64,000 bases of DNA from Armatimonadota bacterium (GTDB lineage: Bacteria > Sysuimicrobiota > Sysuimicrobiia > Sysuimicrobiales > Sysuimicrobiaceae). Position 1 is the first letter of the stretch. Each line of letters begins with the position of its first letter. Positions 52,521-54,990 of this stretch are shown here, in pieces. The notes under the pieces are model-generated. The model was not told where the DNA came from and did not search any database. It was given only the letters and a program-made list of their open reading frames with translations. The position numbers were made by a program, and so were the translations under genes. Where the stretch lies: positions 1-64,000 of the forward strand of contig JAVKGX010000005.1 in NCBI GenBank assembly GCA_031432545.1. The letters run 5' to 3'.

Positions 52521-53510
52521 TCAGCCCCCGCGACGTGCCAGTGCCTTCCAGCGATCGGGCACCAGCGTGCCGTAGTGAAACGCGACGGCGCCGAGGCTAC
52601 GGGGGTGGCTCAGCGCAGCCTCCCAGACGGTCTCCCAACCGGGGGCATCGGCCTGGAGCACGGGGAGCACGGGCCGGCCGACTTCTCCTGCGAAGGCCTC
52701 GAGGATGTCCACGACCCACGAAGGCGGTCGCCCGACCGCCCCGTGGTAGGCCATGGGAGCAATCACGTCCAGGTGCCGAGCCAGCCGCACCGGATCCTGG
52801 CCCAAGACGCGGGTGCGGGCACGAAGTTTCTCTGCGCGCCGCAGCGGCACGACGAACGCGCCGACCGGGAACGTCCGTCCGCGACGTCGCCTGGCCAGCG
52901 CAGCGAACTTTGCGGCGACGTCCTCGATCACGCGGCACTTCCACTCTTCCTACAGACCGCGGTGACGGGCGAGGATGAACCGGGCGCGCTCGGCTGTGGA
53001 CGCCCCCCGGATCGGAAGGCCCGTATCGGCCTGGAAGCGCCGGACGGAGATGTCGTCGAAGCTGTACTGGATCGACCGGGCCGCCCCGGGTCGGATCTCG
53101 CGCTCCCAGCACATTGGCCAGCGCAAAAAGTCCAGCATCAGCCCGTCGACGGGAAGCGACAGCACGCGGTCGGCCGATCGCCCTCGCTCACGTACGTACG
53201 ACGCGTCCGTGGGGATCACGCCGACGTACCAGTCGGATACGACTTGGCGTCTTCCGGTCTCGCCGATCGGCCAAAGCTCCGGCCGCCGGCGCAGTACGCC
53301 GCGCGCGTGCGGGTCGCAGAACAAACGGATGCCGGCAAACCAGCGCAGTCCGACAGCACGGCAGCGCTCGATCAGCGGGAGAGGATACATGTCGCCTTCG
53401 GTGAAGGCCGCATTGACACCCCATGAGGCCAGCGTATCCGCGAGTCTGCCCCAGCGGGTGTCGTCGCCCCTCCAGGCTGAGGGGGGAACGAAGACGCCAA
53501 CGATCTTCTG
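52521..53510 (-). pseudogene. decaying TIM-barrel (glycosyl-hydrolase-like) gene with in-frame amber codon
   Basis: One reading frame runs from about 53510 to 52521. It opens QKIVGVFVPPSAWRGDDTRW, a barrel-like first strand, yet no ATG, GTG or TTG exists between the preceding in-frame stop near 53562 and the Met at 53390. A TAG codon at 52952-52950 then splits the frame (RFILARHRGL, stop, EEWKCRVIEDV), after which it continues without a shift to 52521. The motifs MLDFLRWP and VIAPMAYHG resemble glycosyl-hydrolase-like barrel proteins of the DUF4015/GH-like type. Two partial proteins (146 and 136 residues, from 53390 and 52931) could still be made. Decay or readthrough are both possible; decay is simpler. 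Confidence 0.7.
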
Positions 53511-53745: not shown

Positions 53746-53861
53746 CAGATCCCCGCGGTGGCACGGGTGTTGCTACTTGACAGTCTGAAGATCCCATTGC
53801 CCGTGGCTGGGAGGCGATCGTGGAACATGGCCGGCGAACCCGCCTGAGAGTTCGGTCTCCC

Positions 53862-54593
53862 ATGACCAGACCACTCGGCGCCGGGCTGCTGGTTGTGGCG
53901 TTCTTGTTGGGGGGCACAATCCCGTCCGGAGCCGCCGACCCCCTGGTGCGGCGTGCGGTCTCGACCTTCTTCCGCGACGCCGAGGTCCTCAGGGTCGACG
54001 TGGTCCCCGATCTGTACGAAGGCGGCTACGCGCGTGTGAGCGTGTACGCGGCGAACGCGACCCTGGCGGAGGGCGGGTTGCGCATCGACGAGGCGTGGAC
54101 GCGCCTGGTGGGGGTCAGCTTCAACCCGAAGGCCCTGCGGGCGGGGGAGTTCCGGGTCGACGGCGTGCGGGACACGGCGATCCACATGCGCGTCAGCCTG
54201 CCCAACCTGGAACGCTATTTTGTGGAGCGAAACCCCTGGAAGGACATCCGGTTGTGGGCCCAGGACGGCTATCTCCACGGTCGGGGAACCGTGCCGCTGG
54301 GCGGCGTTCCCACGCGCGTTGAGCTGCGTGGTTTCTTCGCCGCCGGCAACACTCCGGAGCTGTACTTCTACGTGGATCGACTGCGCGTGAACGGCCTCCC
54401 GGTCCCCGACCCCTTGCTGCGTGAGATGGAACGGCGGTACAACCCGCTGCTGACGCAGGACGACTGGCCGGTCCGGTTCAAGCTCCGATCGGTGCGGTTG
54501 GTGGGGACGAACTTGATCGTCAGCAGCCAGTCCCACTTCGGCGACGGCTGCACGTTCTGCGGCGGCGGAGATCCTGGCACCCCAACCCCGTAG
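53862..54593 (+). CDS. secreted DUF2993 (LmeA-like) lipid-binding protein
   Basis: A 243-residue protein. A signal peptide (about 1-24; GAGLLVVAFLLGGTIPSGAA) precedes a domain of the tubular-lipid-binding type (DUF2993), with repeated amphipathic strands such as FRDAEVLRVDVVPDLYEGGY and LGGVPTRVELRGFFAAG. Mycobacterial LmeA binds phosphatidylinositol lipids and acts in lipoglycan synthesis. The C-terminus has a Cys pair, DGCTFCGGG, which is unusual. ATG 53862 was chosen, as the earlier frame from 53820 spoils the signal peptide. Confidence 0.8.
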   Translation: MTRPLGAGLLVVAFLLGGTIPSGAADPLVRRAVSTFFRDAEVLRVDVVPDLYEGGYARVSVYAANATLAEGGLRIDEAWTRLVGVSFNPKALRAGEFRVDGVRDTAIHMRVSLPNLERYFVERNPWKDIRLWAQDGYLHGRGTVPLGGVPTRVELRGFFAAGNTPELYFYVDRLRVNGLPVPDPLLREMERRYNPLLTQDDWPVRFKLRSVRLVGTNLIVSSQSHFGDGCTFCGGGDPGTPTP

Positions 54594-54675: not shown

Positions 54676-54795
54676 TCAGGAGCTGCGTGCCCCCGTCCTC
54701 CGACCGTAGGCCACCCAGCGCACCAGCAACGCAAGCCCCGCCAGCGCACCGACGGCCACACCGCCCCAGAACTCGCCCGTGCCCAGTGGGTCCAC
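54676..54795 (-). CDS. 39-residue single-span membrane peptide under riboswitch control
   Basis: A 40-codon frame: GTG at 54795, stop TGA at 54678-54676. The product MDPLGTGEFWGGVAVGALAG... has one hydrophobic span at about residues 10-29 and a basic tail (YGRRTGAR), which predicts an inner-membrane peptide with the C-terminus inside. GGAGG sits five bases before the GTG, at ideal distance. A c-di-GMP-I riboswitch lies upstream on the same strand, and a hairpin in between can cover the GGAGG. No family is recognised. The small size means gene callers often miss it. Confidence 0.65.
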   Translation of the reverse strand: MDPLGTGEFWGGVAVGALAGLALLVRWVAYGRRTGARSS

Positions 54796-54800
54796 GGCGC

Positions 54801-54837
54801 CCTCCGCCCGGCGACGAAAGACGCCCCCCGGCGGAGG
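54801..54837 (-). promoter_or_regulatory. anti-Shine-Dalgarno hairpin (riboswitch expression platform)
   Basis: On the minus strand CCTCCGCC (54837-54830) can pair with GGCGGAGG (54808-54801) in an 8-bp GC stem with a loop of about 21 bases. The second arm contains the GGAGG ribosome binding site of the 39-residue frame. When formed, the hairpin should block translation. No T-run follows, so control by translation is more likely than by termination. Confidence 0.6.
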
Positions 54838-54850
54838 CGATTGTCCGGCT

Positions 54851-54923
54851 CTTCGGCAACCCGGCTGGCTGGCTGCGCACCAGCCCCGTGGCTTTGCGGA
54901 CCGCCCTCGCGGACGGGGTGCCC
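54851..54923 (-). promoter_or_regulatory. cyclic-di-GMP-I (GEMM-I) riboswitch aptamer
   Basis: The minus-strand RNA reads GGGCA, then a hairpin CCGTCC-GCGA-GGGCGG with a GNRA tetraloop, then TCCGCAAAGCCACGGGG, a second stem around GGCTG-GTGCG-CAGCC, and AGCCGGGTTGCCGAAG. The CGCAAAGCC segment, the GNRA loop on the first hairpin and the GCCGGGTTGCC end are hallmarks of the GEMM-I class. It would sense c-di-GMP and control the 39-residue membrane peptide downstream. The only base change I note is a T where a purine is common after the first hairpin. Confidence 0.85.
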
Positions 54924-54947
54924 TTTCGTGCCCGACTCTTTCGCATT

Positions 54948-54953
54948 ATTCTA
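54948..54953 (-). promoter_or_regulatory. -10 element for the riboswitch transcript
   Basis: TAGAAT on the minus strand (54953-54948) lies 25 bases before the aptamer core, so transcription would start near 54941. No good -35 hexamer was found 16-18 bases upstream, so an alternative sigma factor or read-through from the gene at 54991-55317 is possible. Confidence 0.35.
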
Positions 54954-54990
54954 CCCCGCTGCGGTGCGTCTTAGACCTGTGCCGGTCCGC

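Follow-up and report, generated by a model that had tools for sequence, protein, structure and literature searches.

A c-di-GMP-I riboswitch and its predicted target, a conserved single-span membrane micropeptide, in Sysuimicrobiota

The c-di-GMP-I (GEMM-I) riboswitches are a well-known class, and most of the targets described for them are ordinary proteins. The closest precedent for such a riboswitch beside a short peptide is in C. difficile, where CD0977.1-RCd11 and CD2889-RCd12, with cdi1_4 and cdi1_5, are type I toxin-antitoxin loci encoding toxins of 47 aa (PMC6563280). In those loci, which lie in prophages, the riboswitch is tied to the antitoxin RNA (PMC6563280). The locus described here shares with them a GEMM-I riboswitch next to a short peptide, but its peptide is encoded in the sense orientation immediately after the aptamer, the surroundings are housekeeping genes, and a crude scan showed no antisense promoter. 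The original prediction had called a tiny peptide target unusual for this class; that stands as to the kind of target, though the toxic C. difficile peptides are a precedent. Sysuimicrobiota (CSP1-3), the phylum of the genome studied here, is uncultured (PMC11604079).

The window – the whole 64,000-nt stretch of DNA that was analyzed, from genome G000 – contains one riboswitch by cmscan, a GEMM-I aptamer on the minus strand at 54932–54852. The computed match to RF01051 spans the full model (1–87) with a score of 53.5 bits (E 1.2e-07), well over the gathering cut-off of 35 bits, so that the aptamer earlier placed at 54923–54851 is present with these boundaries. Alignments show that it keeps the conserved core (GGCA, GCAAAG, the GNRA loop and GCCGGGUUGCC), including the G of GGGCA, the A of GCAAAG and the C of UUGCC, which we take to be the ligand-contacting G20, A47 and C92 (Vc2 numbering). 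It has UCCGCAAA or UUCGCAAA, as do ten other surveyed aptamers, while most have GACGCAAA. The predicted 5' strand of P1, GTCGGGC (54936–54930, minus strand), pairs with GCCGGAC (54849–54843) with one G.G mismatch (duplexfold −11.6 kcal/mol). The variant class RF03167 (c-di-GMP-I-GGC) was considered for this aptamer and set aside, RF01051 being the family reported; RF03167 fits two aptamers of another peptide family, peptide B, described below. The window aptamer is thus a member of RF01051 and is predicted to bind c-di-GMP. It is like other members in its full-length match, its core, and the terminator-like hairpin and Shine-Dalgarno sequence directly behind it; it differs in having a 39-aa membrane peptide as its only target.

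The frame of this peptide (peptide A, MDPLGTGEFWGGVAVGALAGLALLVRWVAYGRRTGARSS, 39 aa) was found as predicted at 54795–54676 on the minus strand. It starts with GTG, 56 nt from the aptamer, and a Shine-Dalgarno GGAGG (54805–54801) lies 5 nt ahead of the start, from which translation would be expected. One membrane span and a basic tail had been proposed, and both are borne out: hydropathy reaches 1.79 over 19 residues, AlphaFold2 predicts a single helix at residues 3–37 (mean pLDDT 85.5), and the N end is acidic and the C end basic. Peptide A belongs to no family in Pfam, NCBIfam or PHROGs, and no relatives were found in viral contigs; two of its relatives have a weak Pfam match to Mobilization_B (E 0.28–0.74), below the cut-off. 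Peptide A resembles type IV and Flp prepilins in being short and in having an N-terminal hydrophobic helix that starts with Glu-aromatic, but it lacks the Gly at the expected cleavage position. It was rejected as a type IV or Flp pilin, as neither N_methyl nor Flp_Fap matched it at E up to 10 and it has no cleavage motif.

The next gene downstream, an LmeA-like gene at 53820–54593, is convergent. Because it runs the opposite way, peptide A is the sole target of the riboswitch in the window, as had been claimed. Between the stop codon and this gene is a G+C-rich hairpin without a T run (54652–54625, minus strand), seen in the transcript fold and a possible transcript end. The 356-nt transcript as a whole folds no better than its shuffles (z −0.72), so its overall folding energy gives no argument. 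Neighboring genes in the window include tRNAs and, besides the LmeA-like gene, an AsnC-like domain, a uvrB-like and a uvrA-like gene. The coding region at 52521–53390 on the minus strand is split into two frames near 52940, apparently by a frameshift or a sequencing error.

A short ORF behind an aptamer is weak evidence alone, because a short hydrophobic ORF of some kind, led by a Shine-Dalgarno sequence, follows 17 of the 154 GEMM-I aptamers gathered across the order. The peptide was therefore compared across 43 genomes of the order. With tblastn, the 39 residues had three outside matches below 1e-3 (E 3.6e-4 to 6.0e-4), in G014, G038 and G026, which belong to a different family (f5) from that of G000. 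Each of the three is preceded, on its own strand, by a GEMM-I aptamer 68–102 nt from the start codon, and conservation of the frame behind the riboswitch, on which the original prediction had been staked, therefore holds in three genomes of another family. A profile of the four sequences found four strong loci only, all behind riboswitches, with the next-best match at E 0.0066; the relatives' E-values of 5.8e-24 to 1.9e-21 are partly circular, as these sequences are rows of the profile, but the tblastn matches are not. No strong homologue of peptide A without a riboswitch was found in the order. The evidence goes beyond chance because the same peptide is kept behind homologous aptamers. Among the 153 other aptamers, the closest to that of the window is the peptide-linked one of G014 (86%), so the switch and the peptide seem to have been inherited or transferred together as a cassette.

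The relatives are 84–87 aa long and align with peptide A over approximately 33 residues, followed by a Pro-rich tail of roughly 45 residues that the window copy lacks. Residues M1, L4, T6, E8-F9-W10, G12-V13, L21, L24, R26-W27 and G31 are invariant in all four peptides, giving the patterns T-x-E-F-W-x-G-V and L-x-x-L-x-R-W. The dN/dS ratio, from small numbers of substitutions, is about 0.28–0.65 in the transmembrane part and 0.66–0.9 in the tail (Nei-Gojobori); the transmembrane segment looks to be under purifying selection and the tail weakly constrained. The family is rare – 4 of the 43 genomes, with the window's genome alone in its own family – and so would not be core to a regulon.

From reading of translations, the genes downstream of the peptide differ between the genomes, which makes the peptide the only common target: in G014 and G038 it is a glutaredoxin-like frame that contains an in-frame TGA, and in G026 it encodes a VWA-like protein. 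csoR-copA-like genes are divergent upstream of the cassette in all three f5 relatives (L104, L105, L106). In the glutaredoxin-like frames, at L106 and L104, the TGA is at the active site (TQPG-TGA-LFCGKVKEF), and the product is probably a selenoprotein. The coupling of riboswitch and peptide is thus well supported by comparison, though we infer it rather than observe it.

Between the aptamer and the start codon, two hairpins compete for one strand. The first, which the original prediction did not include, is a terminator-like hairpin, CGCCTCCGCCGGGGGGCG, followed by TCTTTCGTC (54839–54822, minus strand; −12.8 kcal/mol); the terminator scan found one such site with 0.1 expected. The second (54837–54801, minus strand) pairs CCUCCGCC/CCTCCGCC (54837–54830) with GGCGGAGG (54808–54801), which contains the Shine-Dalgarno sequence. 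This fold, the hairpin earlier proposed as able to hide the GGAGG, is the minimum-free-energy fold of the leader (−30.8 vs −23.7 kcal/mol for the competing hairpin). Once GGCGGAGG has been transcribed, it is favored by 7 kcal/mol over the terminator-like fold, and the GGAGG is mostly paired in the ensemble. In the window, the terminator-like fold is equally probable with and without the P1 strand (P 0.997), and the Shine-Dalgarno sequence is masked in every state modelled, whether the P1 strand is present or not. A two-state switch was not seen in the equilibrium folds of this platform, nor is there an antiterminator strand: nothing upstream of the terminator is complementary to CGCCUCC.

The f5 relatives have three competing strands: CGGGRAGG, which overlaps the 3' side of P1; CGCCUUCC; and GGAAGGCG, which a T tract follows. 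At equilibrium the calculations mostly favor the terminator in either state, and a switch acting by termination would therefore have to be kinetic. At the window locus, ligand would close P1, and the platform strand CGCCUCCGCC would change its pairing partner, forming the terminator-like hairpin with its 3' neighbor or hiding the Shine-Dalgarno sequence by pairing with GGCGGAGG. In f5, CGGGRAGG could act as the antiterminator, with the closing of P1 freeing the middle strand for the terminator; these relatives look like OFF switches acting by termination. In the window, the middle strand would form the terminator-like hairpin first and the hairpin hiding the Shine-Dalgarno sequence after further transcription. 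Both would lower expression, and the folds of the window platform fit neither an ON nor an OFF switch in particular.

Upstream of the aptamer, on the same strand, is a promoter-like sequence, GGTCTA-N15-GGGTAGA, at 54977–54950, beginning 45 nt ahead of the aptamer (54977–54948 with the following AT). Its −10-like TAGAAT is at 54953–54948, and transcription is predicted to start at about 54940. The 2.19-Mb genome has two matches at N15, this being one of them, and three at N15–16. A sigma-70 consensus promoter was not found at the window leader.

The motif is associated with GEMM-I leaders across the order. Of the 154 aptamers, 22 have GGTCTA in the 110 nt upstream; Markov shuffles give an expectation of 2.7 and at most 11 in 200 runs. 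The corresponding counts are 2 for the reverse strand and 0 for the downstream side. GGTCTA-N15/16-GGGYANA was found 18 times in five genomes, compared to 2 for the reversed-pattern control, and GGTCTA-N15-GGGYANA 57 times in the order, compared to 10 in controls. The motif precedes the peptide A switch in G000, G014 and G038 and is absent from the peptide leader of G026. Other sites in families f1 and f5 include further GEMM leaders and a number of genes named from sequence motifs and reading rather than from per-gene family searches: type IV prepilins (L197, L201, L206, L207, L208, L213, L216, L217, L234), PilT-like ATPases (L205, L214) and sigma-like proteins (L195, L212). One of these prepilins, L208, is in the window's own genome. 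Beyond f1 and f5 there are many matches ahead of unrelated genes, and these are probably due to chance. The link between motif and pili is an association seen in sequence. The motif GGTCTA-N15-GGGYANA is rare, promoter-like and new here, and its N15 spacing is reminiscent of sigma-28/WhiG promoters.

All 43 genomes of the order have GEMM-I aptamers, 1–13 each; the window's genome has six, of which the window aptamer has the lowest score, and nine GGDEF domains. Twenty of the 127 long frames behind aptamers encode factors of the sigma-70 family, with regions 2 and 4 and mostly region 3 as well, which suggests that c-di-GMP controls an alternative sigma factor. Examples of these GEMM-I-linked factors are L099, L150, L153 and L146. 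That one of them reads the promoter-like motif is a hypothesis. Other targets are CAP-domain proteins, T2SSE ATPases, GspH-type prepilins, periplasmic binding proteins and HD-domain proteins. The expected motility- and adhesion-type targets are therefore seen in this order, as adhesion, pilus and regulatory genes. A further comparison is with GEMM-I riboswitches ahead of type IV pilus and motility genes: in this order many targets are prepilins, ATPases of the T2SSE/PilT kind, sigma factors or secreted proteins, but peptide A has neither a prepilin motif nor a Pfam family.

Several other loci in the order are of note. A second micropeptide family, peptide B (about 29–33 aa, ...LASLL.A.GA.GKW), is GEMM-controlled in three genomes (L185, L184, L186), in two of them with the variant aptamer RF03167; at seven other peptide B loci (L187–L193) no GEMM was found. 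From reading, the peptide B gene comes first, before a DUF5317-like gene; several genomes also have after it the gene of a larger membrane protein that is possibly HD-GYP-like. Four f1 genomes (L026, L027, L031, L032) have a GEMM aptamer, a terminator and a conserved hairpin, GCGCGCGTGCGGACCCTACCCCCCGAGGTCCGCGCGGCGCGCTTC, with no clear ORF, and these may encode a c-di-GMP-controlled small RNA. At G000:C4:148056–148568 (L036, L038, L040), three tandem GEMM aptamers precede one protein of ~390 aa.

Four other explanations of the locus were weighed. Peptide A could be a riboswitch-associated type I toxin, silenced by the hidden Shine-Dalgarno sequence and by c-di-GMP-dependent termination; it is a short hydrophobic peptide with a charged tail, its size, single span and tightly masked Shine-Dalgarno sequence fit, and GEMM-I riboswitches are tied to type I toxins in C. 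difficile (PMC6563280). However, the window locus is not in a prophage or mobile element but among tRNAs and LmeA-like, uvrB-like and uvrA-like genes, the relatives are 84–87 aa with a Pro-rich tail, none is in viral contigs, and the promoter-like motif is found at pilus genes too. A scan of the plus strand for a sigma-70-like antisense promoter also found none, though the scan was crude and the phylum may use other promoters. A toxin is unlikely. Decay of the window copy is somewhat less probable: it is 39 rather than 84–87 aa, has lost the tail, the antiterminator strand (nothing upstream of the terminator complements CGCCUCC) and most of the T tract, and has the weakest aptamer of its genome, so it might no longer be functional, but it retains an intact aptamer core, Shine-Dalgarno sequence, start context (GTGGAC), EFW motif and promoter motif, and the tail is weakly constrained even where it is present.

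The riboswitch RNA might instead run antisense into the convergent LmeA-like gene, whose stop is at 54593. The transcript does point to the 3' end of that gene, several f1 GEMM aptamers are followed by no clear ORF, and antisense-acting riboswitches exist (PMC9943018). Such a device is very improbable given that the peptide frame is kept in three relatives with differing neighbors and with protein-like substitution in the transmembrane part, and that the G+C-rich hairpin lies between the peptide stop and the LmeA-like gene. A role in copper or redox biology, with c-di-GMP control secondary, is suggested by the divergent csoR-copA-like genes of the three relatives and by the glutaredoxin-like gene adjoining the peptide in two genomes; there is no csoR or copA near the window copy, and the conserved part lacks any cluster of Cys, His or Met residues, leaving this the least probable of the four.

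The best explanation, to which we give a probability of about 0.62, is that the c-di-GMP-I riboswitch governs synthesis of peptide A, its sole target at this locus, and that this conserved micropeptide with a single membrane span is part of the type IV pilus/c-di-GMP regulon in Sysuimicrobiota. From GGTCTA-N15-GGGYANA, transcription would start near 54940, probably by an alternative (FliA/WhiG-like) sigma factor. Peptide A, acidic at its N end and basic at its C end, would insert as one helix and would most likely act as a minor partner in some membrane machine, the best guess being the type IV pilus; a copper role for the peptide is equally allowed because of the divergent csoR-copA-like genes in f5. 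A more specific version is that the micropeptide is a dedicated c-di-GMP effector of the pilus machinery, the riboswitch on an alternative-sigma transcript setting the dose of a transmembrane regulator with no c-di-GMP-binding protein; this is possible but doubtful.

Peptide A probably represents a new, small output of surface signalling through c-di-GMP. The suggestion that it is a new second-messenger output is plausible, and the promoter-motif evidence narrows it to the type IV pilus/c-di-GMP regulon. A conserved sole sense target of fewer than 40 residues would connect c-di-GMP to a membrane machine by a compact route, and the common promoter-like motif may help to identify the remaining members of the c-di-GMP/pilus regulon in this uncultured phylum.
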